In this document: positions 24,546-55,435 of the stretch, piece by piece
Numbering within the stretch: the first letter of the stretch is position 1
How the letters are laid out: every line of letters begins with the position of its first letter
From: Clostridia bacterium
GTDB lineage: Bacteria > Bacillota > Clostridia > Oscillospirales > CAG-272
DNA: 59,875 bases
Direction of reading: 5' to 3'
Assembly (NCBI GenBank): GCA_017461745.1
Contig: JAFTXE010000094.1
Span: forward strand, 1 to 59,875
The notes under the pieces: model-generated
What the model saw: only the letters and a program-made list of their open reading frames with translations
What the model was told of the DNA's origin: nothing
The model's database searches: none
Position numbers and translations under genes: made by a program

Positions 24546-25670
24546 TTATTTCACGGTGACCTTCAAAACGTTAGGTCCGTAAGCCGCGCCGATGAGTATG
24601 TATTGGGGGATCACCGTCGCAGTACCGTCTGCCGTCTTTGCGTCTATCTCCGTGTAATAATCGCAATGCTTATGACCGCAGAAGCAGCCTTTAATGATAT
24701 CGCCGTTATTGATGATAAGATTATATATCTCGCCTGACGCGCCCTCGGAATACTGATTTATTCCCTTACTGTAAAAGTTTGCGTAGGCATTGTTCTGGTC
24801 GCCTATAACGGAAGCCTTGGTATTATAATATTTCGCATTTCCCGTTGATATCGGAATATGGTAAAACAACAATACCGTATATCCATTTTCTCTCGCAAGG
24901 GCAAGATCTCCCTTAAGCTGCGACACCTGACAATCCCAAAACAATTCCTTGATACCGTTATCAAGCTGTATCACCATTACCTTGTCCTTAAGGACCTTAG
25001 AGGTATAATAAATATCATGCTCCCAAGCGTCCTGCAATATCTCCAGACGCGATTCAAGCGTGGTCGTATCGGCAACCGTGCCTTGCATTTGTCTTAACGG
25101 CTCGTGATTGCCCATAGTTACCATTATTTTATCATTGCCCGATGCTTTACCATATTTATCCCACATCGTGCTTTTAACCAGGTTAAGAGTTCCCTCAGAC
25201 AGAAAATCTATTGCGTCACCCGTTACTACTATCTGGTCTGCCACGCTGTCTGCATACGCAAGCACCTTTTCAGCCTTTGAAACGGAAGCACCGTTAGCAA
25301 TGGTTCTCCACACTCTTTTTTCTTTTGTGCTTGCAAGAACTGGATTTTTAAGGTCATTTTCCGTAAACGCCCAATAATGAGTGTCGGTTATCTGAACTAC
25401 ATTAACGTCCTCGCCGCCTTTATCGGTATTAATAACGACCTCGCGGACGCTTACACCGTTTTCCGTCTTGTATTTCCAAATATTCGAGCCCATAGTTACC
25501 TCTTTATCTTTATCAGGCTGCGTTTCCGTCATAGAGTCAGTCGGGTCTGCGCTTGAAGTTGCATCCGTCACAGCTTCAACTATATTTTGAGCTTCACCAC
25601 CGTTGCCGCAACCACCCAAAAGCAAGGATACGCATAATAAAATAATTAAAGAAATCTTATACTTTTTCAT
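24546..25670 (-). CDS. Metallophosphoesterase lipoprotein
   Basis: A 374-aa calcineurin-like phosphoesterase anchored outside the membrane. The N-terminus is a lipoprotein signal (lipobox LGGC) followed by an acidic, Ser/Thr-rich linker. The catalytic domain starts at WKYKTENGVSVRE and has all five metallophosphoesterase motifs: DTH, GDAID, GNHEP, YHIP and GHKHCD. It closes with the VLKVTVK tail common to all the family members here. The ATG at 25668-25670 directly follows the stop of the solute-binding protein, so it is read by reinitiation. It is the last gene of cassette 1. A role in cutting an extracellular phosphoester is likely; the substrate is unknown. Confidence 0.85.
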   Translation of the reverse strand: MKKYKISLIILLCVSLLLGGCGNGGEAQNIVEAVTDATSSADPTDSMTETQPDKDKEVTMGSNIWKYKTENGVSVREVVINTDKGGEDVNVVQITDTHYWAFTENDLKNPVLASTKEKRVWRTIANGASVSKAEKVLAYADSVADQIVVTGDAIDFLSEGTLNLVKSTMWDKYGKASGNDKIMVTMGNHEPLRQMQGTVADTTTLESRLEILQDAWEHDIYYTSKVLKDKVMVIQLDNGIKELFWDCQVSQLKGDLALARENGYTVLLFYHIPISTGNAKYYNTKASVIGDQNNAYANFYSKGINQYSEGASGEIYNLIINNGDIIKGCFCGHKHCDYYTEIDAKTADGTATVIPQYILIGAAYGPNVLKVTVK

Positions 25671-25672
25671 TG

Positions 25673-27160
25673 TCAATCATCCAATTGATACCAGACCTCA
25701 AGCTCCATTTTGACATTTCCCTTGATAGCCGTAAGCGCCGTTGATATGGTTTCGCCATATCCTTCCTTACCCTCAATAACGTCCTTACCGATATCGCCTA
25801 TGCCACCGAAGTTGGCATAATGTCCAAGGTCAAAATGCAACGTCTTTCGAACGAGCTGAAGCATTTCATAAGTATATTCGTCCTGAGATGCCTGATATGA
25901 GATTACAGTATCGAAGTAATAAGGAATAACGTCCTTATATCCATAATATGACATTGCCTCAAGCACGTCGGAAATTCTTATTCTGTTGTCCTCACTTGTG
26001 TTTTTGAGAACTGCAAACGTATTAGTTCCCGAACCAACCAAAGAATTGTAATCCTCGGTATCCTTGTCATACTTAGGCCATGGAACTATACCAAAGTTCA
26101 GTCCGCTTCCGTTAAATTCCACTGCGCTCTTTACGTTATCGTCGAAGTAAGCGTATACCTCATTCATAAAATGATCTCTTGCCGCTCCGATACCTATACC
26201 TGCATAGTATACCGCGCCACTGTTGTTTACCAGATCCTGATAATCGCCAAACGCGTCGGTAACTCTGTTTGAATCAATCGCTATGCTGAATTTACCGTCT
26301 CCGCCCTTTGCAAAGGTGGAAACACCCGCGCTGTAAACCGCCTGTATAGGACCTCTCCATGCCTCCGTGCCGTATCCGAACGTATCAGTCTCAGGTAAAC
26401 CGCTACCGTCTCCAACCATTGCGGCGTCAGCGTCTCTTACGGACTTTTCAAAGGTTTCAAGAGTCCAATTATCGTTTTTGACGTGCTCGTAAGGTGTCGT
26501 AATCTTAGCGTTGGAGAAAACGTCTCTGTTGAAATACATAACGTTAGCGCTTCCAACGCTCATATACGACAGATCTCCGTTCATCATATACAAGCGCTTG
26601 CTCGTGGTAGTCCATTCCTCGCGTGCGCTCTGACTCCACCAAGGAGCATCAAGATTAACATACTCAAGCTGATTCCAATCCATATAAAATCCGTTCAAAA
26701 CGCCCTTGAATACGTATCTTCCGTGTCCTGCTATGAGATCGTATGTATCCGCGTCAGACATAGTCGCCGCGTTGATGCTCTGCGTGAATTTCGTCTCATT
26801 AGCTACCTCAACGTAAGTAAACTTAACGTCCATCAGCTCTTCAATAGTTATGTTTCGGTCATATATAGCCTTATCAACCTGAGACGAGCTTTGAGTGATC
26901 TCATTTATTATAATATCACTCTTATAAGTTCCCTCATCGGTATCGCGGCGGCAAAGAATTATAAAATCTCTTCCGTCGTAGGTATTACCCGAAAATACGG
27001 GCTTAAGCTCATCGGTCTCGGTTGATATATCGAGAGTAGGAGTATTATTCCCCGCATCTTCATTCTTATCACCCGCGCAAGCGGCAAAGCTCAAAAGCAT
27101 CAAAATGCTCAGAGCCATAGCCAATGCGCGAACAAAATACTTTTTGTTCATTGTTTTCAT
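25673..27160 (-). CDS. Extracellular solute-binding lipoprotein
   Basis: A 495-aa lipoprotein (signal with AAC lipobox near residue 27) of the ABC-transporter sugar-binding class: two-lobed layout, aromatic-rich middle (DLSYMSVGSANVMYFNRDVF, then NWTLETFEK), and the DTFGY and GSGTNTFAVLKN blocks. It is about 45% alike by eye to the protein at 49060-50514, and both occupy the same slot in their cassettes. No ABC permease or ATPase is encoded in the window, so either a permease from another locus is used or the protein only binds or senses ligand. GAGGTG precedes the ATG. It sits between the small lipoprotein and the metallophosphoesterase genes. Confidence 0.8.
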   Translation of the reverse strand: MKTMNKKYFVRALAMALSILMLLSFAACAGDKNEDAGNNTPTLDISTETDELKPVFSGNTYDGRDFIILCRRDTDEGTYKSDIIINEITQSSSQVDKAIYDRNITIEELMDVKFTYVEVANETKFTQSINAATMSDADTYDLIAGHGRYVFKGVLNGFYMDWNQLEYVNLDAPWWSQSAREEWTTTSKRLYMMNGDLSYMSVGSANVMYFNRDVFSNAKITTPYEHVKNDNWTLETFEKSVRDADAAMVGDGSGLPETDTFGYGTEAWRGPIQAVYSAGVSTFAKGGDGKFSIAIDSNRVTDAFGDYQDLVNNSGAVYYAGIGIGAARDHFMNEVYAYFDDNVKSAVEFNGSGLNFGIVPWPKYDKDTEDYNSLVGSGTNTFAVLKNTSEDNRIRISDVLEAMSYYGYKDVIPYYFDTVISYQASQDEYTYEMLQLVRKTLHFDLGHYANFGGIGDIGKDVIEGKEGYGETISTALTAIKGNVKMELEVWYQLDD

Positions 27161-28791: not shown

Positions 28792-28815
28792 GTTCTTACC
28801 TCATTTTAAATAAAA

Positions 28816-28947
28816 TTATGCGCCCCAGATGTCAGCATATGCAATGGTCTTTTCTCCCATTTCTGCTCCCTCGCCTGAGTTTGCTATGCAATCAAGCGAC
28901 GATACGAAAATTATTTTCATATCGGGTGTTGAATAATAATTTTTCAT
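28816..28947 (-). CDS. Small peptide of the MKKNY-PE family (43 aa)
   Basis: A 43-aa peptide starting MKNYYSTPDMK, with GGAGGAAAAG just upstream of its ATG (28945-28947). The conserved part is MK.NY..P(D/E)M, a hydrophobic IIFV stretch and LDCIANSGEG; the tail is GAEMGEKTIAYADIWGA. It lies 17 bp after the metallophosphoesterase frame and 24 bp before the next beta-helix gene, the same slot as the peptide gene at 52417-52539. There is no export signal and no known domain. The repeated position and strong ribosome site argue that it is a real gene. Confidence 0.7.
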   Translation of the reverse strand: MKNYYSTPDMKIIFVSSLDCIANSGEGAEMGEKTIAYADIWGA

Positions 28948-28964
28948 TATCTTTTCCTCCTTAA

Positions 28965-29930: not shown

Positions 29931-29933
29931 CCT

Positions 29934-33533: not shown

Positions 33534-33590
33534 GTTTTTATTTGATTACAGCGACGCAATTTTTGAGGTGTTATAGGCAGAAGTCATTTG
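33534..33590 (-). other. Recombinase 3'-end remnant merged with the GH78 3' end
   Basis: About 56 bp match 59704-59759, the end of the tyrosine recombinase gene and its downstream sequence, with only a handful of differences. Even the last codons agree: both proteins end N-D-F-C-L then TAA. The block continues through CGACGCAATTTTTGA into TTTATTTG. It looks like a recombination scar joining a former recombinase tail to this rhamnosidase. Confidence 0.6.
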
Positions 33591-35844
33591 AGTTTTCATT
33601 TGTCAGATGCATGCGATATGTATGCTTACCTTGGGTAACAGTTTGACAAAAACCGTTTGGCAGAGTAATGTCTGCAATTACTCCTTGGGGAACTGTGAAT
33701 TCATAGGTTACGCAATCGTTTTCATAAATCCAATAGCTTTCAATACGTCCCGATACGGTTTCAATCGCGCACTTGGCAAAGCCGAGTCGTTTGTCGGGTA
33801 CGGGAGCTAAACGAATACGCTTATATCCAGCATCAAGGATTTGAATTCCGCACACGGTTTCGTACATCCACTCGGCAACACAGCCGTAAGCGTAATGGTT
33901 AAAGGAATTCATACCTACGCTCCAAAAGCTACCGTCTTCTTTTATTCCGTTCCAATGCTCCCAAATGGTTGTTGCACCATGGTCAACGGAATAAAGCCAT
34001 GAGGGATTTTTATTTTGGAAGAATAAGTTATACGCTACGTCGTGTTTGCCACACTCTGACAACGCGTGAAGAATGTAAGGAGTGCCAAGAAAGCCTGTTG
34101 ACATTCTTCCGTCAAAATTACGGATAAGCTCACTTAGCTTTTCGACAAGAGGCTCGCGTTCTTCGGGCAAACACAGATTAAAGTGGAGTATAAGAGTAAT
34201 AGCGGTTTGCGTTATTCCTCTGCGCTCTTTGTCAACTACAGTATTATTTCCCTTGGTAATTATTTCCGTATAAGGCAATTTTTCTTTCGGCATACCGTTT
34301 TCCATAAAGTATTCACGGAAGCGTTTTACTATGTTTTTGTAAAGCTGTTCATATTCGGACATATCTTGACCGAGAACGTATCCTGCTTTGACTAAAAGCT
34401 CGGTAGAATATGCGTAAAACGCGGTTGCAACAAGATCTACGGATGTAGCTCCGACGTAGGAATTCTCCCCTGCGTCCATAGCGAGCCAATCTCCGTAATG
34501 ATAACCTGTAAGCCACAGATATTCTTCATCTCCAACGCCTCTTACGTAGTCTACCCATTTCTTCATCATTTCAAAGTTTTCGGTAAGAAATGACTTATCA
34601 TTATATATTTCATAAAGTGTCCAAGGTATTATTGTTACCGCATCTCCCCACCCTGCGGATATGCGCGTGCAATAAGCATCGTTATAGTTTTCGGGACATA
34701 CTCCAAGAACAGCTCCGTTGCTTCTTTGCTCTGCACGAAGGTCTCCAAGCCATTTTTTAAAAAATTGGCAAACGTCAAAATTGGTTGCGGCAGTTCTGCA
34801 AAACACTTGCGCGTCACCCGTCCAACCAAGTCTCTCATCGCGCTGAGGGCAATCTGTGGGAATATCGAGATAGTTACCCTTTTGCCCCCAAATTATGTTG
34901 CTGTAAAGCTGATTAATGCGTTTATCTCCACATGTGAAATAGCCCGTGCGCTCCATTTTCGAGTGAACAACGATGGCTCTGAAACCGTCAAGGTCAACGT
35001 CATCAAAAGGATATTCGTCAATTCTTACGTATCGAAATCCTTGGAATGAATATGTGGGCTTAAAGCTGTCCGCATCACCGCTTAAAACGTATATAACGGG
35101 CTTGGCGGCTTTACGGTAGTTTTCGTTATAGAAATTGCCGTCCTTGTCAAGTACCTCTCCGAAAGAAAGAACTACTCTGTCTCCTCTGTTGCCTTTTATA
35201 TTCAAAGATACGTATCCCGTTATATTTTGTCCAAAGTCAATAACCTTTTCACCTTTGGGAGTGACGATAAGCTCTATGGGCGAAAGAATTTCATTTTCTA
35301 CGATATCTGCGCCAATCTGTGGAACGAGGGGAAAAGACTTTGCGGGTATAGCGTTTCCAAGATATTTTATATCAGCCGTTTTATCAACGGTTTCTCCAAA
35401 GTAGATTTCGGAATGGGTTACTTCGTCGGTATATACCTGCCACGTACAGTCGGTTGTAATGTAGCTTATGCTTCCGTCTGCTGACAACAATTCAAGCTCC
35501 GCAACGGCTTGGACACTGTTCCCCCACGGGTGATATTTGCCGCGAGGCCCGAAATAACCAACAGCCCAGCCTGGACCGACGGATATTTCAAGCTTGTTAT
35601 TTTCGTCAAGTATGTCGGTTACGTCATAGCTGTTATATTGAATACGGTCACCGTAACACGTAAGTCCCGGTGTAAGCACTTGCTCTCCTAACCTTTCTCC
35701 ATTGAGAGTAGCCTTATAGATTCCTAAACACGATGCATACAGCGTAGCCTTCTTAACCGAAGATTTTATTTCAAAATCCTTTTTAAAGGTTAGTACCGCT
35801 CCTTCGATATCTTCAGGACTTTTGATCCAAATTTGGGATTTCAT
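33571..35844 (-). CDS. GH78-family alpha-L-rhamnosidase
   Basis: A 757-aa intracellular rhamnosidase. The N-terminal beta domains hold YKATLNGERLGEQVLTPG and the D-FGQN...G strand (VIDFGQNITGYV). The catalytic barrel motif DCPQRDERLGWTGDA is at about 331-345, and the DHGATTIWEHWNG block with a conserved Glu follows near 620. The ATG at 35844 (MKSQIWIKSP) has GGAG seven bases upstream; a longer frame upstream has no ribosome site. It follows GH20 by 42 bp. It is closely related to the GH78 at 46296-48536. Its last five codons coincide with a recombinase remnant, so the natural C-terminus may have been replaced. Confidence 0.9.
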   Translation of the reverse strand: MKSQIWIKSPEDIEGAVLTFKKDFEIKSSVKKATLYASCLGIYKATLNGERLGEQVLTPGLTCYGDRIQYNSYDVTDILDENNKLEISVGPGWAVGYFGPRGKYHPWGNSVQAVAELELLSADGSISYITTDCTWQVYTDEVTHSEIYFGETVDKTADIKYLGNAIPAKSFPLVPQIGADIVENEILSPIELIVTPKGEKVIDFGQNITGYVSLNIKGNRGDRVVLSFGEVLDKDGNFYNENYRKAAKPVIYVLSGDADSFKPTYSFQGFRYVRIDEYPFDDVDLDGFRAIVVHSKMERTGYFTCGDKRINQLYSNIIWGQKGNYLDIPTDCPQRDERLGWTGDAQVFCRTAATNFDVCQFFKKWLGDLRAEQRSNGAVLGVCPENYNDAYCTRISAGWGDAVTIIPWTLYEIYNDKSFLTENFEMMKKWVDYVRGVGDEEYLWLTGYHYGDWLAMDAGENSYVGATSVDLVATAFYAYSTELLVKAGYVLGQDMSEYEQLYKNIVKRFREYFMENGMPKEKLPYTEIITKGNNTVVDKERRGITQTAITLILHFNLCLPEEREPLVEKLSELIRNFDGRMSTGFLGTPYILHALSECGKHDVAYNLFFQNKNPSWLYSVDHGATTIWEHWNGIKEDGSFWSVGMNSFNHYAYGCVAEWMYETVCGIQILDAGYKRIRLAPVPDKRLGFAKCAIETVSGRIESYWIYENDCVTYEFTVPQGVIADITLPNGFCQTVTQGKHTYRMHLTNENSNDFCL

Positions 35845-35886
35845 TTTTTGACTCCTTTTAGAATTAAATGTGTCTTCCCACAACCT

Positions 35887-37485
35887 TTAAAGCAAAGCAT
35901 TTGCTGTTGAACCTAACTGGGCGTTGTTATAATTGATGCTTCTTTCCTTATATTTATACGGCAGCAGCTCTTCTTCAAGCTCGTCGATACGGTCTATTTT
36001 GCCGGCGGTATACGCGAGTATTCTGCGACGGCAAGCATCGGTGCGTCTCAAAAGTGCGCCCAAGCGCTGATCCTGAATGTCAAAGCCGTGAGGCTTATTA
36101 TCGGTAAACCATTGCTTTTCAAAGGCTCTGGCATATATATCTATAAGCTTCTCAACCTTTACGTACTCGTTTTTCGCGAGACGTTCAAGCTCTGTTTTAT
36201 CTTTTCTTTCATAAGCCTTGCGGGTACGAAGTCCAAGCTCGTATTTTATTGCCATTACGTCGCAAAGCTTTGCCGCTGAATCAAATACGTAACCGTATTT
36301 TCGGCTCTTTTTGGCAGTAGCGTGAAGCTGACGGGCATACTCAACGTACTTTTTTCCCTCACCTTCCTTTATGGTATAATCAAAGAAATCATTAAAGTAA
36401 TCGGAGTAAAGCATATATTTCGATGGATTATGAGCTTCGCCTTGATATCCCAATACCTCGTTGGGGCAATCAATATTCATAAACTCATCAAAATCTATCC
36501 CCACGAGTCTTTTAAACTTTGCTTTTATCTTTTGCTCGTCGGAGTTGCCTTTGGCATATTCTGCAAGGTAAAACAAAGATGGGAGTTGAGAAAAATGAGA
36601 GCATTCCGCGCCGTTATCTCCCCACATAGTCATAAATACGTTGCGAATTTTGTTCTTTTTGCAAGCGTTAAGCGCAGGAATCATGGAATCAAGCGTGAAT
36701 TTGTTAAACGGTATCATTCCACTCCATCCCCAAATACCGCCCGCAAACCACGTTTGATTTGTGAGTTGCTTATGATTATACATCATATTGCTGTAATTTT
36801 CTTCTTTAGTCTGGTAATAATCCCAATAAATAGGAATCACCGAAGGCGGTATCGCGTCGACTACTTCTTGGGGAATTTTACATTTTGGTATATAATATTC
36901 TCCACTGTTCCAAGGTCTGAAAAACATATCCGACCAAATCATTAACTCGTAACCGTACTTCTCGGCTATCTTGCATATTTTTTCAAGATGACGTTTCATT
37001 ATGGTATTTACTGACTCATATCCGTGTATATCAAGATGCCTTCCTCTGCCGAGGTTGTGGGCTTCGTCCATACCGATATGTATTTTTCTTGACACGAAGC
37101 ACTCGGAAAGAGTTGCAAACATACGGTCTATAAGCTCATACGTTCTTTCGTCGTCAGTGAGTAGAATATCGTCGCAGTCCTTTGGGAACTTATTCCAATG
37201 GAATATTGCGTTAAGATGCGCGAGCGTTTGAATACAGGGGATAACGCTCATTCCGATAGACGTAGCAAACGCATCTATCTCCTTCATTTCAGCCTTGGAA
37301 TAACGTCCCCTCATATAACCAAAGTAAGGCTCTCCGTCTACCTCATAGGTGTCCTCGGTATAAAGTAACACACAATTATACCCCATTTTTTTCAATAGGG
37401 TTAAAAAGCGTTTAAGTCCGTCCATACTCATTACGGCATTTCTTGACATATCTATCATTACGCCAAAGGTATCAAAGTTTTTCAT
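35887..37485 (-). CDS. GH20-family beta-hexosaminidase-like protein
   Basis: A 532-aa cytosolic protein with a GH20 TIM barrel: FLTLLKKMGYNCVLLYTEDTYE at the start of the barrel, PCIQTLAHL near 83-91, and the catalytic Asp140-Glu141 pair in HIGMDEAH. MIWSDMFFRP, IPIYWDYY and TMWGDNGAE follow as expected barrel strands. It has no N-terminal zincin-like domain, as in the short GH20 group. It should remove beta-linked N-acetylhexosamine or a related sugar. It is the first gene of a two-gene operon with GH78, with a promoter at 37529-37557, divergent from the AraC-phosphoesterase gene, which may regulate it. Confidence 0.8.
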   Translation of the reverse strand: MKNFDTFGVMIDMSRNAVMSMDGLKRFLTLLKKMGYNCVLLYTEDTYEVDGEPYFGYMRGRYSKAEMKEIDAFATSIGMSVIPCIQTLAHLNAIFHWNKFPKDCDDILLTDDERTYELIDRMFATLSECFVSRKIHIGMDEAHNLGRGRHLDIHGYESVNTIMKRHLEKICKIAEKYGYELMIWSDMFFRPWNSGEYYIPKCKIPQEVVDAIPPSVIPIYWDYYQTKEENYSNMMYNHKQLTNQTWFAGGIWGWSGMIPFNKFTLDSMIPALNACKKNKIRNVFMTMWGDNGAECSHFSQLPSLFYLAEYAKGNSDEQKIKAKFKRLVGIDFDEFMNIDCPNEVLGYQGEAHNPSKYMLYSDYFNDFFDYTIKEGEGKKYVEYARQLHATAKKSRKYGYVFDSAAKLCDVMAIKYELGLRTRKAYERKDKTELERLAKNEYVKVEKLIDIYARAFEKQWFTDNKPHGFDIQDQRLGALLRRTDACRRRILAYTAGKIDRIDELEEELLPYKYKERSINYNNAQLGSTANALL

Positions 37486-37528: not shown

Positions 37529-37557
37529 ATTATATCACATAAAACATGTCGATTCAA
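37529..37557 (-). promoter_or_regulatory. Promoter for the GH20-GH78 operon
   Basis: Minus strand: TTGAAT (37552-37557), 17-bp spacer, TATAAT (37529-37534). Confidence 0.6.
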
Positions 37558-37630
37558 CAGAGTATATTAACATATTTCCGAACTATTACACACTGTTTTC
37601 TAATAAAAAAAGCCTCTTTTGTGTAGTATA

Positions 37631-37659
37631 TTGACATTTTATTTAAAAAATGCTATTAT
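37631..37659 (+). promoter_or_regulatory. Promoter for the AraC-phosphoesterase gene and GH127
   Basis: TTGACA (37631-37636), 17-bp spacer, TATTAT (37654-37659). The spacer end TTTAAAAAATGCTA is identical to that of the promoter at 55572-55600. Confidence 0.7.
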
Positions 37660-37708: not shown

Positions 37709-39517
37709 ATGTACAAGATCGATCATCCCCATGACAGATCCAGACTATTCTACCCTGATAGAAAAGTCCTTGAAAACATAAGTGTAACAGAAATTGGTAC
37801 GATATCGTCCTGCAACGGATATTACAAGGACATCAACAATGGAAATTTTTATATCATTCACTATTTGTTAAGCGGAAAAGGAGTATTTCGGGGACAACGG
37901 TTCACTGCGCCTTGTATATTTGTGTTTGCTCCCAACGATCAGCTGTCATACTCCATCGACTCTGAATCGGAATCTGTTGAACATTTCTGGATAAAACTTG
38001 AGGGAAAGGAGACCAAGTCATTTTTGGCAGAAGCAGGTTTCCCTACTGTTTCTTCCCTGTGTTTCTTTACCTATGTGAAGAAAGCAAAACAAATATTTAC
38101 AGAGCTTACCACCGAGGCAAACTACGTAGATATAGATGACAGATATTTTATGCTTCAAGGTTTTTTAAATCTTTGTACACTGCACAGAAGATCCATGCAT
38201 AAAAGCAACTCACCGAAGGACGTAAATCCCTACGTTATAAAAACCATAGAGTATATCAACTCCCATTATTCACAGCCTATAACAGAAAAAATACTTGCCG
38301 AGAATTTGCACGTTTCTGTCAATTATATGCATAGGCTGTTTTGTCAGGATATGGATATGACTCCCAACTATTATATAAACAAATACAGGGTAGAACGCTC
38401 TAAGTCATTGCTGGTAGATACCGCGCTTCCAATAGCCCACGTAGCGGAAAGGGTGGGATTTTCCAGCGGAGATTACTTCGGACGTGTTTTTGCTAAGTTA
38501 ATGGAATGTACTCCCTCGTACTACCGTAAGCACTATAAAAAAACTCACAATAATATGGTCATATCCAACGTGAACGGTTCAAAAACAAATAAGATAGATT
38601 GGATATACCGTGAGGAAACCTCGGGTATAATGGTAAGAGAGGCGGATATTTACACAGGTCACGATGGACCTATGCTTAAAATCGGTATCATTTCGGACAC
38701 GCATTTTAACTACTGTAACAATCGTGATTTCGAGGAAAATCACCCAACTGTTATGAGCTCCTACGCCCACCGCAAATGGCTTGCAAACGGAAAAAACGTT
38801 AAAAAGACAGCTAAGTGTCTTAAATATATATCCGATTGTGACCAAATGGTGGTGCTGGGTGATATTTTAGACTATCTTACTCACGGAGCTATTGAGCTTG
38901 CAAAGAAAAATATTTTTGACAAATATCCCAATATTATAGCCTGCGTAGGAAATCACGACGCGGTCAGAAAAATGGAGGGGACGGTTGATGAGATAGATTC
39001 TCTTGAAGAACGCAGAAACGTTCTCAAAAGCTTTTGGGTACATGATATAGATTATTACTCAAAAATTCTTGACGGTCGGGTTATGCTTATACAAATGGAT
39101 AATGCGAGCAGAGAGGGGTTTGTGAAAGATCAGATAAAAAATCTTAAGACGGATCTTTCTCTTGCGAGAAAGCAAGGACTTGCGGTGCTGCTCTTCTTCC
39201 ACAATCCTATATCTATAAACAATCCCGCCACAACTGTCACTATGCCTATAAGAAGAAATGACGGTGGAGTAGCTAATTTTAACAATATTTCGTATCTTAT
39301 CGGACCGAAGTCAAAGGGAGCTTCACTTGAGGGCTACGAGCTGATAATAAACAATGCGGATATTATTCAAGCCGTATTCTGCGCCCATATGCACAGCGAT
39401 TATTATACCGAAATATACGCAAAGACCGCTGATGGCAAGGACAAAAAGATACCGCAGTATATAACCACCGGCACAGCATACGATCAGGGGCACGTAATGA
39501 TAGTAAATATAAAATAA
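37709..39517 (+). CDS. AraC regulator fused to a metallophosphoesterase
   Basis: A 602-aa protein in one uninterrupted frame. Residues about 1-120 are a cupin-like sensor (YYLLSGKG-type strand, then FVFAPNDQLSYSI). About 175-275 is an AraC double helix-turn-helix (LAENLHVSVNYMHRLFCQ, AERVGFSSGDYFGRVF). A linker at about 280-305 leads to a complete metallophosphoesterase at 306-602: Asp330-Thr-His332, Asp385 in GDILD, Asn415-His416, His498 and His560-x-His562. The catalytic half belongs to the same subfamily as the exported enzymes at 24546, 28965, 41490, 44028 and 54470. GGAG precedes the ATG. GH127 follows 17 bp later. The enzyme may destroy or sense a phosphorylated signal that the regulator responds to. 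I know of no described protein of this build. Confidence 0.85.
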   Translation: MYKIDHPHDRSRLFYPDRKVLENISVTEIGTISSCNGYYKDINNGNFYIIHYLLSGKGVFRGQRFTAPCIFVFAPNDQLSYSIDSESESVEHFWIKLEGKETKSFLAEAGFPTVSSLCFFTYVKKAKQIFTELTTEANYVDIDDRYFMLQGFLNLCTLHRRSMHKSNSPKDVNPYVIKTIEYINSHYSQPITEKILAENLHVSVNYMHRLFCQDMDMTPNYYINKYRVERSKSLLVDTALPIAHVAERVGFSSGDYFGRVFAKLMECTPSYYRKHYKKTHNNMVISNVNGSKTNKIDWIYREETSGIMVREADIYTGHDGPMLKIGIISDTHFNYCNNRDFEENHPTVMSSYAHRKWLANGKNVKKTAKCLKYISDCDQMVVLGDILDYLTHGAIELAKKNIFDKYPNIIACVGNHDAVRKMEGTVDEIDSLEERRNVLKSFWVHDIDYYSKILDGRVMLIQMDNASREGFVKDQIKNLKTDLSLARKQGLAVLLFFHNPISINNPATTVTMPIRRNDGGVANFNNISYLIGPKSKGASLEGYELIINNADIIQAVFCAHMHSDYYTEIYAKTADGKDKKIPQYITTGTAYDQGHVMIVNIK

Positions 39518-39534: not shown

Positions 39535-41397
39535 ATGATATCAAACAAGGTGAGTGAAATGGAAAACGGACGCAAGATGTGGCGAGAGCCCTTTTCGGAA
39601 ATAAAATTCGACGGTCTTTTTACCGAGGTCGCAAATTTTATTCAGCGCAATCAGATATGCGAGGTCAACCTCTGGAATAAATTCGTAAAGCAATATAAGG
39701 AGTTCGTGGACGGTCCCGACAGACGCTGGAGAGGCGAATATTGGGGCAAAATGATGCGCGGCGCTTCTATGATAGTCGGCTACACCAAGGACAAGGGTAT
39801 GTACAGGGTGCTTGAAAACACCGTCAAGGATATGCTGAGCGCCGAGGACGAGCACGGACGCTTTTCCACATATTCCGTTGACAAGGAGTTTGACGGTTGG
39901 GATATGTGGTGTCGCAAATACGTGCTTCTCGGTATGCAGTATTTTCTTGAAATATGTCAGAATGATGATTTGAAAAAGGACGTCATAGCGGCTATGTGCC
40001 GTCACGCTGACTACATTATGTCAAAGGTCGGACACGAGCAGGACGGAAAGATAGAAATATATAACACGACGAGGGATTGGAAGGGCGTAAACTCTTGCTC
40101 TATCCTTGAGCCCTACGTACGTCTTTACAGACTCACGGGTGAGAAGCGCTACCTTGACTTCGCCGAATACATAATTTCAACGGGCTTTTGCGCGGACGGA
40201 AATCTTTGGGAGCTTGCAATTGAGGATAAGCTTATGCCTTGCGAATATCCCGTGAACAAGGCTTATGAAATGATGTCCTGCTTTGAGGGACTTATTCAAT
40301 ACTACTACGTTACGGGAATTGAAAAGTACAAGACCGCCGCTATTAATTTCGGTAAAAAGATAATAGAGATGGAAATGAGCATAATCGGAAACAGCGGCTG
40401 CACACACGAGCTGTTCGACCACACGGCAGTAAATCAGACCAAAACGGGATATGACTTCGTTATGCAGGAGACCTGCGTTGCAGTTACATGGATGAAGCTC
40501 GCGTCGGCGCTCCTTGAGCTCACGGGAGACCCCGTATTTGCGGATTGCATCGAAACAACGTTCTATAACGCATATCTCGGCTCACTGAACACAAAACGCG
40601 TGGCATACACCATCTTTCCCGAAAAGCACGCCCCTCAGGTCATGCCCTTTGACAGCTACAGTCCTCTCGTAGCAGATACGCGCGGTAAATTTATCGGCGG
40701 CTACTGCTCCTTCCACGACACGACCTTCTACGGCTGTTGCGCTTGTATCGGCGGTGCGGGAGCGGGCGTTATTCCGAGAACTGCGGTAATGAGAAACGAC
40801 GAGACAATAATCTTCAACTTCTATCACGAGGGAAGCCTTTGCACGCTGACTCCCAACGGCACTCCCCTTACGGTACGTCAGCAGACAAAGTATCCCACGG
40901 ACGGTAATATAGCTCTTACAATATACGTAGAAAAGGTGGAGAGCTTTGGTATAGGCCTGCGTATTCCCGCATGGTGTAAAAATGCGACGGTAAAGGTAAA
41001 CGGCGAGGACGTTGAGGTAACGGAAGGATATACCACGGTGACGAGAACGTGGAGCTCTGGAGACGTTATCGAGCTTTGCATGGATATGACGGTTGAGAGA
41101 ATTCTGCCTCCCGAAAACGCGCAGAACGCGGATATTTTTGCGGGATACCGCCGCGGACCTATAATTCTGGCAGCAGACGCGAGAATTACCGACCCAAGAG
41201 CCGTTATTGACGTCAAGTGCGACAAAAACGGATCTGCAAAGGGAGAAAAGAAATTCTGTCCCGAAATTCCCGAGGCACTTGAATGCATCGAGCTTACAAA
41301 GGAGAACGGCGAAAAGGTACGTCTTATAGACTACTCCTCAGCGGGTAAAACGTGGGATAAGACCTCAATGTGCGCCGCTTGGCTGAGAAGAAAATAA
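39535..41397 (+). CDS. GH127-family beta-L-arabinofuranosidase-like protein
   Basis: A 620-aa cytosolic enzyme of the former DUF1680 group. The (alpha/alpha)6 barrel includes RGEYWGKMMRGA and FDGWDMWCRKY. The zinc/thiolate site is visible: Glu312 and Cys314 in QETC, and Cys401-Cys402 in FYGCCACIGGAG; in the family a Cys acts as nucleophile. The C-terminal third is beta-sandwich (GLRIPAW, GYTTVTRTWSSGDVIEL). It should release beta-L-arabinofuranose, as in plant hydroxyproline-linked or pectic arabinans; GH146-like specificity is an alternative. It is co-transcribed with the AraC-phosphoesterase gene, 17 bp upstream. Confidence 0.85.
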   Translation: MISNKVSEMENGRKMWREPFSEIKFDGLFTEVANFIQRNQICEVNLWNKFVKQYKEFVDGPDRRWRGEYWGKMMRGASMIVGYTKDKGMYRVLENTVKDMLSAEDEHGRFSTYSVDKEFDGWDMWCRKYVLLGMQYFLEICQNDDLKKDVIAAMCRHADYIMSKVGHEQDGKIEIYNTTRDWKGVNSCSILEPYVRLYRLTGEKRYLDFAEYIISTGFCADGNLWELAIEDKLMPCEYPVNKAYEMMSCFEGLIQYYYVTGIEKYKTAAINFGKKIIEMEMSIIGNSGCTHELFDHTAVNQTKTGYDFVMQETCVAVTWMKLASALLELTGDPVFADCIETTFYNAYLGSLNTKRVAYTIFPEKHAPQVMPFDSYSPLVADTRGKFIGGYCSFHDTTFYGCCACIGGAGAGVIPRTAVMRNDETIIFNFYHEGSLCTLTPNGTPLTVRQQTKYPTDGNIALTIYVEKVESFGIGLRIPAWCKNATVKVNGEDVEVTEGYTTVTRTWSSGDVIELCMDMTVERILPPENAQNADIFAGYRRGPIILAADARITDPRAVIDVKCDKNGSAKGEKKFCPEIPEALECIELTKENGEKVRLIDYSSAGKTWDKTSMCAAWLRRK

Positions 41398-41489: not shown

Positions 41490-44018
41490 TTATTTTACAG
41501 TGATCCTCAATGCGTAACCGCCGTCATAGAACATTGCGTTAAGAACGTACTGAGGAATAACGGTATACATTCCTTCTGCGTCAACAGCGTCTATTTCAGT
41601 ATAAAATCCGCTGTGTACGTGTCCTGAGAAGCAACCCTTTATCACGTCGCCGTGAGTTACTATCAGGTCGTATACATCCTTTGATGCTCCGCTTGAATAG
41701 CTACCAATGGTATCAGCCTTGGAATTGTAGAAATTCTTTGTATCAAGCTGTCCCTTATCGTCACAGGCAATATCCTTATATTCGGGATTGCCCGTAGCTA
41801 TCGGAATGTGGTAGAAAAGCAGAACGGAATAGCCTTCACTTCTTGCCAATTCAAGATCGGCACTTAACAAATTGACCTGCGCCTCTCTGAACTCGCCCGT
41901 CGTTCCGTTATCCAACTGTATGAGCATTACCTTGTTTCCAAGCACCTTCTTAGAATAAAAGATATCGCCCTCTCCGCCTTCTGTCCAATAGTCCTTCTCC
42001 GTTGTCTCTATTTCTCCTATGCGCCCGTCAACAATATTTTGCCACTCTTCAGCAGTATAAGTATTTTCCTCACCAATTGCCTTTACGACGTCGTGGTTTC
42101 CGAGACATGCCATAATATTCTCTCTACCGTCGAATATATAGTTAAACGATTGCGCTACGGTTTCATTCGTAAGGAAATCGTATATATCTCCCGTTATAAC
42201 TATCTGGTCAGCGTTGCTAAAAGTATTGAGTGCTTTTTTAGCATTTTCTGAATTCTTAGAAAAATCCATAGACCTTTTTTCATATGTTTCTTTAAGTGTT
42301 TTATCGTAATATATGGTTTTGTCCGCTATGTCTATATCGTTCAACCATGCAAGATGCAGGTCGCTGATATGTACTATCTCAATATCCTCGCCGCCCTTGC
42401 CCGTGTCTATGATTATTTCTCTTACGCTGATGCCGTTCTCTGTAGTATTATCCGACCATCTGTTAGGTTCTTTCTTCGCCGTATAGCTCTCGGTAGCTTC
42501 GTCGTATCTGTAAGCGTACTTATTTTCAAGAACGGAATACTGCGTAGCGCTGTAGGGGCTGTATTTACCGTCAGCTATCTTGCAATTGTACGTATCTGCG
42601 TCGTAGGTAGCAGACGTATCGTTAACTGCCTTATAAGCAACGTAAACTATACTGCGCGCATTGTTTTCAGCACTATAGTCGGAATACATAGTTACATTTA
42701 CGTTATCTTCGGGAGTATATTTTGCGTATGCTCTTGCGGAGTATTCTTTAGTCGGGTCTTTCATTCCCTGAATGACCGCATTATACGTAATTTTTTCGCC
42801 GTCGTCATCCTTTTTAAAGCCATTATCCATGCTTGCAACCTGAGCGTACTTTACACTTGCGGCAGTGAGTGCCGAATGTGTAAAGCTAATTTCCGTAAGT
42901 GTTTTAGTCGTAGGCGTTATGATAATACCGTATTCATCAGCTTGATTATCGCTCGCTATAGCTGCCGTAAAACGCATACCGTTATCCGAAAGCGTCGTAC
43001 GAACGGACGCGCCGTCTTCAAGAGTGGGAATAGCATAATTCAAATCAACTTCGTCAGTAGTTTCACCCTTGTCGCTACTTGTTTTCAAAAAGTCAAGATC
43101 CGTTACATTGAAGTTAAGCCTTTCAGTTGCAGAACCGCTTATTCCATACCACTTTGTTCCGTTATTTATTATGCAAGCGTCTTTTCCTATAGTCACGTTG
43201 GTTGTGCCCGTACCGGTAACGTTGAAAAATTCAACAGTGTTATTAGTCTGTATAAGTTTAGAACTTCCCGCTATGTTAATATTAGCATTTGACAATCCTC
43301 TGAGCATTCGCTTACCAGAACAAATAGTGGAATTAGAAATGCTCACATTTCTGACCTGATACGTTAAGCCATATATAGTAGCTCCCGAATGTTCACTATA
43401 TCCCTCAGCATCAGGATCATTAATTGACGTAGAAATCAAATTAACGGTTAATCCGCGTGTTGATGGGGAAGTATTTCCAAACACAGTACCCCCACCGTAT
43501 AACCATAAAGTACAGTCGCTCACATTTACAGTAGTATCAAAGCTCGTACCTGAATTGGTTCTAATATATCCCTTCTCATCGTTTATATTTTTTCCTACCC
43601 AAGTACAACCATTTATAGTAAGCTGTGTGCCGCCAGCCACCTCTATTCGTTTCCAAGTTGACGTAATCGTCAGTTTATTTACAGTGACAGTCTCTCCGTT
43701 TACAAATTTGAAAACATCTGCCGCGTTCGTGTCTGTAAGTGTATATCCATTGCCGTTTATTGTAATTTCAATAGCAGCTGTACCAGCATTTGTATCTGTA
43801 GACACCATTGTGTAATCACTGTTAAAATCAATCGTTCCTCCGCCGTATTCATACACTTTTGCAAGAGCCGCCGCCCACGTAGAGCAGTCAGATGCAGTCT
43901 CGCCTACGTCATTTCCCGTAACGGTAAACGGAGCTGTGCCTTCCGCAGAAACCATTGTAGCAAAAGCGGTCATTATCATTAGACACGCCAATGCTAAAGA
44001 TAATATTTTCTTTTTCAT
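41490..44018 (-). CDS. Secreted beta-helix / shared module / metallophosphoesterase fusion
   Basis: An 842-aa exported protein. Signal peptide 1-25 (VSA/E). Beta helix at about 55-320 (ITINGNGYTL, VTVNKLTI, LTINGCTW, VNVSDCTL, VSISNSTI). Shared module at about 332-500 (DGASVRT, GMRFTA, EYSARAYAKYT, NARSIVYVA, YSPYSATQYSVLENKY). Metallophosphoesterase at 521-842 with SDLHLAW (Asp553, His555), GDIYD, GNHD, YHIP and GHVHSG. It shows the intact form of the fusion that is interrupted by TGA at 29934. It is the last gene of the GH78-MBL-phosphoesterase group, nine bp after the lipoprotein phosphoesterase gene. It likely holds the enzyme near its polymer or wall target. Confidence 0.8.
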   Translation of the reverse strand: MKKKILSLALACLMIMTAFATMVSAEGTAPFTVTGNDVGETASDCSTWAAALAKVYEYGGGTIDFNSDYTMVSTDTNAGTAAIEITINGNGYTLTDTNAADVFKFVNGETVTVNKLTITSTWKRIEVAGGTQLTINGCTWVGKNINDEKGYIRTNSGTSFDTTVNVSDCTLWLYGGGTVFGNTSPSTRGLTVNLISTSINDPDAEGYSEHSGATIYGLTYQVRNVSISNSTICSGKRMLRGLSNANINIAGSSKLIQTNNTVEFFNVTGTGTTNVTIGKDACIINNGTKWYGISGSATERLNFNVTDLDFLKTSSDKGETTDEVDLNYAIPTLEDGASVRTTLSDNGMRFTAAIASDNQADEYGIIITPTTKTLTEISFTHSALTAASVKYAQVASMDNGFKKDDDGEKITYNAVIQGMKDPTKEYSARAYAKYTPEDNVNVTMYSDYSAENNARSIVYVAYKAVNDTSATYDADTYNCKIADGKYSPYSATQYSVLENKYAYRYDEATESYTAKKEPNRWSDNTTENGISVREIIIDTGKGGEDIEIVHISDLHLAWLNDIDIADKTIYYDKTLKETYEKRSMDFSKNSENAKKALNTFSNADQIVITGDIYDFLTNETVAQSFNYIFDGRENIMACLGNHDVVKAIGEENTYTAEEWQNIVDGRIGEIETTEKDYWTEGGEGDIFYSKKVLGNKVMLIQLDNGTTGEFREAQVNLLSADLELARSEGYSVLLFYHIPIATGNPEYKDIACDDKGQLDTKNFYNSKADTIGSYSSGASKDVYDLIVTHGDVIKGCFSGHVHSGFYTEIDAVDAEGMYTVIPQYVLNAMFYDGGYALRITVK

Positions 44019-44027
44019 TTTATCTCC

Positions 44028-45140
44028 TTATTTTACCGTAATTCTCAAGGCGTGACCACCTGTATATGCCGTTGACATAATGGTATATTGCGGAATATAT
44101 GCCTTATTACCCGAAGGATCGGTTGCAACTATCTCGGTATAGAAATCGCTGTGATGATGTCCCGTAAAGCAACCCTTGATTATATCACCGTTCGTGGTGA
44201 TAAGGTCGTATATTTCCTTATCCGCGCCTATCAATGTGGAGCAAGAGCCTCTTGTGGCGTAGTTATAGGACGTTATAGCGCCCTTTCCAGCCATGATTGC
44301 TTGTGCGTTGCTGTACTTTATATTGTATGTCGCTAAAGGGATATGGAAGAACAGCAGAACGGTATAGCCCTCAGCTCTTGCCGTTGCCAAGTCCGCTGTA
44401 AGCAGCGGAATCTGAACGTCCCAGAAGCTTCCCGTCGTTCCGTTATCCATCTGTATGAGCATTACCTTGTTTCCAAGCACCTTTGAGGAATAATATACGT
44501 CATTCACCCAGCCTGCCGCAAGCGTTGGCATACGCTCAAGAACGGTGGCCTTCCAGTCTGCGCCCGTAGACTCCTCGCCCATCTTCTTTGCAGCCTCGTG
44601 GTTGCCAAGACACGCCATGATGTTGTCGTAAGCGTTGAATATATGCTTATTGACCTGCGTTATAACTTCACTCGTCAGATAGTCGTATATATCTCCCGTA
44701 ATAACTATCTGGTCGGCATCCTTTGCCCACTCAAGACACTTAACGGCATTTCCCAAAAACTGACCGTTTTTTCCCCAATCCCTACTATCGTATGTCGCCT
44801 TTATCACGGGATCAGCAAGGTCGGTCGCATTGGCGTAAGCAAGGTGCATATCGGTAAGCTGAACTATCTCGATATCCTCTCCGCCCTTGCCTGTTTCAAT
44901 TACTATATCTCTTATGGTTATACCGTTCTGTTGGCTATATTTCCACATATTTATATCTCCGTCATCCTCCGTCTTTGGCTTGGTTGGCGCATCGGTGTCC
45001 GTCGTCTCGGGTGCGGAGGTTTCCGAGGTGTCGGAGATAACGTTCGTCAATTCCGTAACACCCGAATTATCTGCGCAACCGCCAAGGAAAAGAGAAAGCG
45101 CAAGAGCACAAATCAATATTCTTGAAAATATTTTATTCAT
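44028..45140 (-). CDS. Metallophosphoesterase lipoprotein
   Basis: A 370-aa lipoprotein: signal with lipobox LGGC (Cys22), a Thr/Asp-rich stalk to about 60, then the catalytic domain with Asp97/His99 in LTDMH, Asp150 in GDIYD, Asn180-His181, His266 in FHIP and His328-x-His330 in GHHHSD. It is the intact parent of the deleted copy at 48708-48961, with which it shares long, nearly identical DNA. It lies 19 bp after the MBL gene and nine bp before the beta-helix fusion. It is membrane-anchored outside the cell; the substrate is unknown. Confidence 0.85.
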   Translation of the reverse strand: MNKIFSRILICALALSLFLGGCADNSGVTELTNVISDTSETSAPETTDTDAPTKPKTEDDGDINMWKYSQQNGITIRDIVIETGKGGEDIEIVQLTDMHLAYANATDLADPVIKATYDSRDWGKNGQFLGNAVKCLEWAKDADQIVITGDIYDYLTSEVITQVNKHIFNAYDNIMACLGNHEAAKKMGEESTGADWKATVLERMPTLAAGWVNDVYYSSKVLGNKVMLIQMDNGTTGSFWDVQIPLLTADLATARAEGYTVLLFFHIPLATYNIKYSNAQAIMAGKGAITSYNYATRGSCSTLIGADKEIYDLITTNGDIIKGCFTGHHHSDFYTEIVATDPSGNKAYIPQYTIMSTAYTGGHALRITVK

Positions 45141-48707: not shown

Positions 48708-48961
48708 TTATTTTACCGTAATTCTCAAGGCGTGACCGCCTGTATATGCCGTTGACATAATGGTATATTGCGGAATATATGCCTTATTACCCGAAGGATC
48801 GGTTGCAACTATCTCGGTATAAAAATCACTGTGGTGATGTCCCGTAAAGCAACCCTTGATTATATCACCGTTCGTGGTGATAAGGTCGTATATTTCCTTA
48901 TCCGCGCCTATCAATGTGGAGCAAGAACACAAATCAATATTCTTGAAAATATTTTATTCAT
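48708..48961 (-). pseudogene. Metallophosphoesterase lipoprotein remnant with 859-bp deletion
   Basis: The ATG and first 11 codons (MNKIFSRILIC) and the last 70 or so codons (CSTLIGADKEIYDLI onward, including GHHHSD) of the gene at 44028-45140 are present. The middle is missing. In the intact copy the breakpoints are two GCAAGAGC repeats at 44241 and 45100, 859 bp apart, so the deletion shifts the frame and the product stops after 16 codons. The remaining DNA is nearly identical to the parent, so the event is recent. Confidence 0.85.
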
Positions 48962-49059: not shown

Positions 49060-50514
49060 TTACTGATTATCAAGCGCATACCAGCTGTCAAGCTGTAACA
49101 GCACTGCCTTGCCAAGGCCCGCGACAACGGTAGAATAGCTTGTGTTGCTGTCAATAGCCGTATTCAAAGTACCCATGATATTACCGGGGTTCAAATATTC
49201 AGCCAAAGCCACACACGCGGCGTCGTGAATACGCTGAAGCATCTCCAGATCGTCCGGACTCTGCATGGACTGATAGGAGAGAACCTTATCGTAGTATACG
49301 GGAATGATTATTTTCTGTCCGTAGTACGCCATAGCCTCGACTACCACGCCGACCATCTCTCTGTCCTCTTCGGGAACTGTAATCGGAATCATAAAGGTAT
49401 TGGTTCCACTTCCTATTTTTACCTCGATGCTTTCAACGTTTTCGTCGTATTTGTAGCCAGGAACGAGACCGAAATTAACGCCTTCACTCTTAAAGGTCGG
49501 CGCGCACTTTACGGTATCCTCGATAAATATAGCTTTACCCTTACCGAAAGCTTTACGCATTTCGTTGAGCTCTGCCATGTAGGAATAGGGCTGATTCAGC
49601 ATGAGTGAATATTCGTCTGCGGCGTCGTAAACCGTCTGAGTCTTGATACCGATAGAATAAGTACCGTCTCCGCCGCGCACGAGGGTTTCAATGCCCGTGC
49701 TGTTGATTACCATACCCGGACCTCTGTATTTCTCGGTAACGTAAGCGAAGGTATCCTGACCAATGATTCCGCTTCCGTCTCCGTCTACGGAGCTATCAGC
49801 GTCAATTATCATCTGCTTGAAGGTTGAGAAATACCAGGTATCGTTTCTTACGTACTCGTAAGGAAGAGTAATTTTAGCGTTATTCAGTACAGTCTTATTG
49901 AAATAAATACCGTTCGTGCTTCCAACGGAAAGATACGAGATATCTCCGTTAATGGCAAACAGCTTTCCACCGGGGGTCGTCCATACATCCTCAAGGTTGT
50001 CGAGCCACCATGATTTCTCAAGATCAATATACTCGAAATCGTGTATCTCGGAGGCGTTGTTTCCGACTATAAGCTGGAAGACGTATCTTCCCTGCGTAGC
50101 TATGAGGTCGTAGGTGTCGTCACCTGAGCTTACGGAATTCATTACGGTGCTATTGAGTTTAGTCTCTTCCTCTGCAATGAGGATTATCTCTACACCGTAA
50201 GCCTCCTCAACGGTTCTGTTTCTCTGATATACAGCTTTGTCAACCGAGTCAGACTCGGCGGTAAGCTCGGAAATGTCAAGATCCTTCATATACTCGCTGT
50301 TGCTTCCGCTTCTGCCGAGTATGGTAAAGGGCGCACCCCCGTAGTTTACGTCGGGTAGCTCCAGCTTTTCATCACCCTCAGCCGTATCAACGGTAACGGA
50401 AACGTCGTCCGTTTCTTCGGTCTCTTCATCGTTTGCGCAAGCAACTATACTTACCGTCATAAGCAATGACAGAAGCAAAGCCAAAGCGCGAGTTAAAAGC
50501 TTTAATTTTTTCAT
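49060..50514 (-). CDS. Extracellular solute-binding lipoprotein
   Basis: A 484-aa lipoprotein (lipobox VAC, Cys26) and cassette 2 counterpart of the protein at 25673-27160: shared DKAVYQRN-type opening, TYDLIATQGRYVF, a tryptophan-rich middle (KSWWLDNLEDVWTT), DISYLSVGSTNGIYFNK, and GSGTNTFMIPI. It is a sugar- or oligosaccharide-type ABC binding protein by layout, but again no permease is encoded nearby. It is encoded 35 bp after the small lipoprotein gene. A third copy once existed next to it, judging by the remnant at 48636. Confidence 0.8.
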   Translation of the reverse strand: MKKLKLLTRALALLLSLLMTVSIVACANDEETEETDDVSVTVDTAEGDEKLELPDVNYGGAPFTILGRSGSNSEYMKDLDISELTAESDSVDKAVYQRNRTVEEAYGVEIILIAEEETKLNSTVMNSVSSGDDTYDLIATQGRYVFQLIVGNNASEIHDFEYIDLEKSWWLDNLEDVWTTPGGKLFAINGDISYLSVGSTNGIYFNKTVLNNAKITLPYEYVRNDTWYFSTFKQMIIDADSSVDGDGSGIIGQDTFAYVTEKYRGPGMVINSTGIETLVRGGDGTYSIGIKTQTVYDAADEYSLMLNQPYSYMAELNEMRKAFGKGKAIFIEDTVKCAPTFKSEGVNFGLVPGYKYDENVESIEVKIGSGTNTFMIPITVPEEDREMVGVVVEAMAYYGQKIIIPVYYDKVLSYQSMQSPDDLEMLQRIHDAACVALAEYLNPGNIMGTLNTAIDSNTSYSTVVAGLGKAVLLQLDSWYALDNQ

Positions 50515-52378: not shown

Positions 52379-52416
52379 GATTTTTACCTCTCTTATATAT
52401 TTTTTAAGATTCTCAA

Positions 52417-52539: not shown

Positions 52540-52555
52540 GATTTTTTACCTCCTC

Positions 52556-54469: not shown

Positions 54470-55435
54470 TTATTTAACGGTAATTCTCACCGCATTTCCT
54501 TTGTCATAAATAGAGCCTTTAAGAACATACTGCGGAATGACGGTATGTGTGCCGTTTTCCGTCGTTGCGTTTATCTCCATATAAAAATCGCTATGAAGAT
54601 GTCCGCAGAATGCTCCTTTGATTATGTCGCCGTTTCTGACTATAAGCTCGTAAATTTCCTTTGACGCGCCCGTGGACTGATTTGATACTGTATCGCTGTA
54701 AGAATTGTAAAAGTTCTTGTACGCTACGTCGCCTCGGTCAAGTGTTTCGGTATATTGGTATTTGGGGTTTCCCGTCGCTATGGGAATATGATAGAAAATC
54801 AAAACGGCATATCCTTCTTCTCTCGCGCGTGCCAAATCATTCTTGAACGGTTCTATCTGACAATCCCAGAATTCTCCCGCAGTTGCGTTATCCATCTGTA
54901 TAAGCATTACCTTGTTTTCAATGACCTCGGACGAATAATAAATGCTTTCATTACTGTTATAAGCTACGCGCGTATTCCAGCATTTATCAAACGATGCTAT
55001 CCTCTTTATAGCAAGAGCCTGCCATTCCTCTTTGCTATAATCATGTTCGTCACCCATCTTCGTGGCAACCTCGTGATTTCCAAGACACGCCATTAAATTA
55101 CCGTAGGCAGAAAAAATATGCTTGTTTGCCTGTATGGCAGTCTCGCTCGTCAAAAAGTCGTAAATATCACCCGTTATAACTATCTTGTCTGCATCCTTGA
55201 AATGCTCAAGAACCCGTTTTGTCAAATCAAGATGGTCGGTTCTATTCTCATAAATATGCGCCCATTTTCTTTGCTCGTAGGTCTTGCAAAGCGTGCTGTC
55301 TGCCATGTCCGCGTCATTCATCCAAGCTATATGCAGATCGGTGAGCTGGACAATTTCTACGTCCTTGCCGCCCTTTTGAGTTTCTATTACTACGTCTCTT
55401 ATCTTTATTCCATTTTCTATCTCGGTTGTCCACAT
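54470..55435 (-). CDS. Cytosolic metallophosphoesterase
   Basis: A 321-aa enzyme that is just the catalytic core: it starts at MWTTEIENGIKIRDVV, exactly where the domain begins in its exported relatives, with no signal peptide. Motifs: LTDLHIAW, GDIYDFL, GNHE, YHIP and GHLHSD, ending VRITVK. GGAGG lies 13 bases before the ATG. It has its own promoter (55480-55508) and is divergent from GH78 at 55632. It is most like the lipoprotein at 44028 and the fusion at 41490. It may act on the same substrate after import. Confidence 0.85.
   Translation of the reverse strand: MWTTEIENGIKIRDVVIETQKGGKDVEIVQLTDLHIAWMNDADMADSTLCKTYEQRKWAHIYENRTDHLDLTKRVLEHFKDADKIVITGDIYDFLTSETAIQANKHIFSAYGNLMACLGNHEVATKMGDEHDYSKEEWQALAIKRIASFDKCWNTRVAYNSNESIYYSSEVIENKVMLIQMDNATAGEFWDCQIEPFKNDLARAREEGYAVLIFYHIPIATGNPKYQYTETLDRGDVAYKNFYNSYSDTVSNQSTGASKEIYELIVRNGDIIKGAFCGHLHSDFYMEINATTENGTHTVIPQYVLKGSIYDKGNAVRITVK

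Follow-up and report, generated by a model that had tools for sequence, protein, structure and literature searches.

The window, the whole 59,875-nucleotide stretch of a Clostridia bacterium contig analysed here, contains a single open reading frame (ORF) that joins an AraC-type regulator to a calcineurin-like metallophosphoesterase (MPE), preceded by the ribosome-binding site (RBS) AAGGAG (Table 1). Pfam searches placed an AraC cupin, an AraC helix-turn-helix (HTH) and an MPE domain along the protein, in that order from the N to the C terminus. Both features of AraC/XylS regulators were found, the cupin ligand-binding and dimerisation domain marginally (PF02311; 21.9 bits, just above the cut-off of 21.1) and the double HTH with 72.6 bits (PF12833; cut-off 33.6), and the HTH also matched the sequences of solved AraC-type DNA-binding domains in the Protein Data Bank (PDB). 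The Metallophos profile matched residues 323-563 with 39 bits (cut-off 21.5). As the original prediction had stated, one frame encodes a cupin, an AraC HTH and a full MPE, and all eight metal ligands that it had named (D330, H332, D385, N415, H416, H498, H560 and H562) are present. Calcineurin-like MPEs carry the motifs DxH, GDxxD, GNH[DE], H and GHxH; the fusion reads DTH, GDILD, GNHD, H498 and AHMH, the last with both histidines retained and glycine replaced by alanine. Neither a signal peptide nor a transmembrane segment was seen in the fusion protein, whose highest 19-residue Kyte-Doolittle mean was 1.24.

Table 1. Features of the fusion gene and its surroundings in the window.
Feature	Position	Strand	Basis or remark
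Alpha-L-rhamnosidase-type glycosidase	33571..35883	-	Pfam; 3 bp downstream of GH20C
GH20C-type glycosidase	35887..37485	-	Pfam; divergent from fusion
Promoter-like site toward divergent GH20C gene	37529..37557	-	consensus match only
Candidate operator, ACTATT element	37582..37611	+	common to three fusions; putative function
Sigma-70-like promoter of fusion, TTGACA-17-TATTAT	37631..37659	+	consensus; position conserved in sister fusions
AraC-MPE fusion gene	37709..39517	+	single ORF, 602 aa, ATG start
AraC-type cupin sensor core, residues 47-111	37847..38041	+	Pfam AraC_binding PF02311
AraC double HTH, residues 196-274	38294..38530	+	Pfam HTH_18 PF12833
Linker, residues 279-297	38543..38599	+	alignment of three fusions
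MPE domain, GNHD type, residues 298-602, eight ligands	38600..39514	+	Pfam and alignment
GH127-type glycosidase	39535..41397	+	17 bp downstream of fusion
842-aa protein, signal peptide and C-terminal MPE of the same family	41490..44018	-	Pfam and signal rule
Lipoprotein MPE	44028..45140	-	orthologue adjoins a G017 fusion
Lipoprotein MPE	24546..25676	-	next to ~490-aa lipoprotein gene 25673-27160
Lipoprotein, ~490-aa MPE-accompanying family	49060..50514	-	weakly SBP-like; E 0.008, fails Pfam cut-off
Stand-alone MPE, no signal peptide	54470..55435	-	signal rule

Two full-length homologues of the fusion were found in G017, a genome of another species of the same genus, both on one contig of 136,897 bases. 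They are 60% (C9:127788-129590) and 54% (C9:57285-59087) identical to the window protein, are matched over residues 1-602 with no internal stop, and are open across the AraC/MPE junction without a frameshift. An alignment of the three proteins has one gap column, common to both sisters and within the MPE half, and the start codon, the RBS and the -35 and -10 boxes align among the three genes. The draft state of the window's own assembly (138 contigs) and the occurrence of the fusion in just two genomes of the genus might suggest an artefact, be it a frameshift, a chimera or the erroneous joining of separate araC and MPE genes. Two more full-length fusions on one contig of another genome, 54-60% identical and alike in start, RBS and promoter, render an artefact exceedingly improbable; because both are open across the junction, the comparison in practice excludes a frameshift or chimera. 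The homologues thus serve in place of the resequencing that had been proposed as a check on a frameshift at the junction, and the fusion is not confined to one genome. Among 888 ORFs, namely those of at least 150 amino acids from the window and the loci collected by then, both halves were matched at E 1e-10 by only the three fusions (six overlapping copies). A 620-residue ORF of the genome G239 was considered as a fourth fusion and rejected, since it has an N-terminal lipoprotein-type signal and no AraC match.

The fusion is rare. It occurs in two of the 30 genomes of the genus, its own included, and draws of 395 genomes from the family, 394 from the order, 391 from the class and 398 from the phylum gave a full-length match in its own genome only. 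Scoring in these draws covered the best three candidates of each genome, and the total of 1668 genomes includes repeats, since some were drawn more than once. G017 is absent from the matches and was evidently not drawn; for this reason, and given the limit on candidates, the draws demonstrate rarity rather than absence. A scan of genome contigs found one MPE relative, without AraC, and a scan of viral contigs found no relative.

In the window, the fusion is followed at 17 bp by the GH127-type gene and then by two convergent MPE genes (41490-44018 and 44028-45140). The same order of fusion, GH127 and convergent MPE lipoprotein is found at one G017 fusion, where the GH127 orthologue is 82.6% identical and the counterpart of the lipoprotein MPE 44028-45140 is 66-67% identical (pair support 100/98). 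The divergent neighbours of these syntenic fusions differ, being GH20C- and rhamnosidase-type genes in the window and a GH36-type gene in G017. The second G017 fusion (L039:9286-11091), which is the 54% homologue and has an aspartate in place of H560 (H560D), lies at another place, near GH65, SDR and MR/MLE genes, and is divergent from a gene for a GDPD-family phosphodiesterase (8035-8853). Since the window has rhamnosidase-type, GH43-like, FGGY-kinase, isomerase-like and aldolase genes, its gene content identifies the setting of the fusion as glycan use. The exact sugar is not named here because NCBIfam scores in the window fall below the curated cut-offs.

The cluster has further features of its own. 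A family of ~490-residue lipoproteins accompanies MPE genes in the window (25673-27160 and 49060-50514) and at the loci L038, L040-L042, L081 and L082; nine members are mutually homologous, and one is weakly SBP_bac_1-like (E 0.008). No PDB relative of these lipoproteins was found at E 0.01, with an alignment that includes window 25673-27160 twice as two overlapping slices. Just downstream of the lipoprotein gene 49060-50514 lies a short MPE piece (48711-48944, minus strand), an 81-residue open frame with 42% identity to the fusion C terminus. On the minus strand, an ORF for a 434-residue secreted-type protein (29934-31238) and an MPE ORF (28965-29930) are in one frame with a single TGA between them, possibly a broken gene or a case of recoding; in 41490-44018 an uninterrupted frame encodes a secreted N-terminal part together with an MPE. 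Secreted-type proteins encoded in 27436-31238, 41490-44018 and 50789-54142 (minus strand) have similar leaders, e.g. MKKKILSLALACLMI, and their Pfam matches outside the MPE domain are mostly absent or weak.

At the position of the fusion promoter, the sister fusions have TTGACT with TATTAT or TATCAT. Ten promoter-like sites were observed in the region against 13.4 expected from shuffles, and the evidence for the promoter is therefore its conservation and not the scan. In all three fusions the ACTATT element is upstream of the -35 box, at a distance of 125-132 bp from the ATG, and in the window it sits between promoter-like sites facing both ways. A pattern derived from the three ACTATT sites occurs once in the window at up to three mismatches, with 0.01 occurrences expected. 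The element is a candidate autoregulatory site, although it could be conserved by shared promoter descent alone. When the window and eight loci were scanned with a matrix of the three sites, no strong second copy was detected; the sites themselves scored 36.5-39.2, and the next best scores were 15.2 (L045), 14.1 (L039) and 12.5 (window). Such sites thus give no support to the idea that the fusion controls the MPE operons. A weak match to the element (11.5) occurs at window 54191-54225 on the plus strand, in the gap upstream of the secreted-protein gene 52556-54142, and an exact short form of the element misses L039 and matches one unrelated locus, L106.

The fusions formed one clade (100/100) in a tree of 35 AraC domains, and also one clade (100/100) in a tree of 51 MPE domains, there nested in a clade of 23 rows (98/91). 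Because they form a single clade in both trees, the three known fusions are placed as descendants of one origin. The closest unfused AraCs, L037 (G017:C31), L068 (G324) and L082 (G338), grouped with the fusions at 98/97, and each is encoded divergently from a gene group that includes a ~490-residue lipoprotein and at least one MPE; the parts that are fused in the window occur as separate neighbours in relatives. In the stretches examined, no MPE of this family was found near 12 other AraC relatives (L044, L045, L084, L107-L112, L115, L116 and L117, the last two from G017 and G005, genomes that do bear MPEs); some of these stretches end early with their contigs, and flanks of more than 1.5 kb were covered for part of the relatives. 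Since the genomes behind ten of the 12 showed AraC matches only (at E 1e-40 or better), this contrast is largely one of co-occurrence, not of adjacency. More distant AraC genes are also near MPEs, at window 23497-24396, beside 24546-25676, and at L041:12980-13873. The neighbours of the three closest unfused AraCs lend further weight to an association of such AraCs with this MPE family.

Of the 20 unfused rows in the 23-row MPE clade, 14 are exported and six have no signal peptide, judged by a crude rule based on hydropathy and a lipobox. The 14 comprise 13 classed as lipoprotein or secreted and one truncated copy (L048_3_1076, labelled CYTO) of a gene that has a lipoprotein-type signal in L082; L075 is an N-terminally truncated reading. 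The MPE half of the fusion therefore falls among mostly exported MPEs, and members of this exported subfamily are present elsewhere in the window, as had been claimed: by the same crude rule, 24546-25676 and 44028-45140 encode lipoproteins, and the product of 41490-44018 carries a signal peptide. The description of the fusion as a cytosolic twin of these exported enzymes was borne out, but it is not the only one, because the stand-alone MPE 54470-55435 also has no signal peptide. Given the kinship of the MPE half with mostly exported MPEs, and the MPE operons divergent from the closest unfused AraCs, the simplest and probable history is the uptake by a regulator of an enzyme from the operon that it likely controlled. 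In a separate comparison, L033 of G017 is 75% identical in the domain to window 24546-25676, which is a lipoprotein, whereas L033 starts just before the domain and has no signal; export thus seems easily gained or lost among near-relative MPEs.

Across the 51 aligned MPE domains, seven of the eight ligand columns are conserved in 50-51 rows, and N415 is Asn in 32. The family divides at this Asn of GNH[DE], with 29 Asn and 19 Gly or Ala among the 48 unfused rows, and all fusions belong to the Asn (GNH) side. Among the 19 Gly/Ala rows, a GGH-type subfamily, 18 were classed as having no signal peptide and one is a truncated reading. The full ligand set is present in two of the three fusions; as the metal ligand H560 is Asp in the 54% G017 paralogue, catalysis may be dispensable there. 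The fusion has the Metallophos profile and the ligands in common with calcineurin-like phosphoesterases, and sequence searches found no significant PDB relative of the MPE family, the nearest solved sequence to the MPE half being acid sphingomyelinase-like phosphodiesterase 3a (E 0.027-0.037).

Compared with each sister, the window gene is more conserved in its MPE half than in its AraC half, in identity (69% vs 50-51% and 61% vs 45-52%) and in dN (0.21 vs 0.36-0.43 and 0.29 vs 0.35-0.42); only dN is quoted because dS was undefined in both pairs. No such excess conservation of the MPE half is seen when the two G017 fusions are compared with each other (65% vs 61-68%). The comparison with the sisters thus indicates constraint on the MPE half, at any rate along the window and orthologue lines. 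The linkers of the three fusions are 21-42% identical and have no indel. This conservation and the constant linker length favour a functional domain kept at a fixed spacing, and do not separate a sensor from a plain enzyme. All three fusions carry T383L, beside the GD motif, where all 29 unfused GNH-type relatives have Thr, and T503I, after H498-x-P, where 28 of these 29 do. Of 71 positions conserved in at least 80% of these 29 rows, 53 are kept and two are absent in all three fusions. A comparable count gave 2-9 lost conserved positions in six other MPE clades, which makes these two losses unexceptional; they were rejected as a sign of decay, and residue loss was not used as strong evidence.

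AraC/XylS sugar regulators, represented by the AraC, MelR and RhaS models, resemble the fusion in having a cupin and a double HTH, in their sugar-use setting and in their divergent promoter-like sites, but the fusion has an extra enzyme domain of 305 residues and falls well short of the equivalog cut-offs. Enzymes with a second role in transcriptional control are called trigger enzymes, and the fusion has their build, with a catalytic-type domain and a DNA-binding domain in one chain. In Ada, an AraC-type HTH and a methyltransferase are in one chain and the enzyme chemistry drives regulation; the fusion likewise joins an AraC-type HTH to an enzyme, but a different one, and its match to Ada (NF011964; 22.6 bits) covers the HTH only. 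Btr, the bacillibactin transport regulator, is an AraC protein with a C-terminal cytosolic twin of the exported FeuA. The fusion HTH matches positions 156-268 of the 531-position Btr model (NF049932; 31.8 bits, HTH only) and is likewise followed by a long C-terminal part, which, as in Btr, has an exported homologue encoded in the same cluster; the twin in the fusion, however, is a metalloenzyme of the Metallophos type and not a solute-binding protein. The best NCBIfam match was to AryK-type AraCs (NF047455, 759 positions), in which a long C-terminal part also follows the HTH (136-276), but it reached 82.2 bits against a cut-off of 850 and stopped at residue 293, before the MPE domain. Searches of the open-licence PMC literature gave no AraC fused to a calcineurin-like phosphoesterase, consistent with the original statement that no described protein of such build was known. 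An enzyme with an AraC-type DNA-binding domain (Ada) and an AraC with a twin of an exported partner (Btr) are already known.

The protein is most likely a one-component regulator whose MPE half would bind, and perhaps hydrolyse, an imported phospho-ligand. We give a probability of roughly 0.42 to a cytosolic trigger-enzyme regulator of the glycan-use cluster in which the two halves are coupled. An AraC activator, kin of regulators divergent from MPE operons, would have acquired an enzyme copy from such an operon. Exported MPEs and glycosidases would release a glycan fragment bearing a phosphate or phosphodiester, which would be imported; the MPE half would bind this fragment, probably with hydrolysis in the case of the window protein and its orthologue, and occupancy of or turnover in the MPE site would alter DNA binding in 37529-37659. 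By this trigger-enzyme design, the fusion would both report its substrate and remove it. Coupling agrees with three full-length fusions in one clade, with their unfused AraC kin beside MPE operons where 12 other AraCs have no MPE nearby, and with ligands intact in two of the three. The shared promoter element between divergent promoter-like sites, however, could persist by descent and has no strong second site, the AraC contrast is confounded by AraC-only control genomes and by distant AraCs near MPEs, and the companion lipoproteins, which are weakly SBP-like, also count against it.

Alternatively, the protein might be bifunctional with uncoupled halves, the cupin sensing a sugar and the MPE acting as a cytosolic catabolic phosphoesterase kept in step with GH127 by fusion and autoregulation. 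The retained cupin, the short gap to GH127 with the pair syntenic in G017, and the ordinariness here of stand-alone MPEs without a signal peptide (window 54470-55435; L027_2618, L028_538, L033 and L034 of G017) point to this reading, which we consider possible but doubtful. That such MPEs share clusters with a fusion itself devoid of a signal peptide is also in keeping with coupling; likewise, the better conservation of the MPE half in the window gene and a linker variable in sequence and constant in length argue for coupling, but a merely catabolic fusion would also show a lower dN and a constant linker length, and the conservation is not repeated between the two G017 fusions. Uncoupled halves leave unexplained why the H560D paralogue keeps the whole domain and why the linker is free of indels, both weak objections. 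The H560D change itself counts against coupling and fits an MPE half that is solely a ligand-binding domain with little or no catalysis, by analogy with the FeuA-like domain of Btr. T383L and T503I, at positions nearly invariant in unfused GNH-type relatives, point the same way, yet two losses are unexceptional among MPE clades, and the window protein and its orthologue retain every ligand; we regard a purely sensory role as unlikely. Quite unlikely, too, is a self-limiting sensor, in which intact phospho-ligand in the MPE site would switch the regulator and the inducer would then be destroyed, while the H560D paralogue would bind without turnover and its GDPD-type neighbour would clear the ligand.

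If the two halves are coupled as in the preferred reading, the fusion would be a snapshot of a one-component regulator acquiring a catalytic sensor from its own type of operon, with the unfused AraC and MPE neighbours persisting in relatives of the fusion carriers. The MPE family, which has no solved relative detectable by sequence and occurs in glycan-use clusters, draws attention in its own right, and its presence in such clusters hints at phosphate- or phosphodiester-bearing glycans as food.
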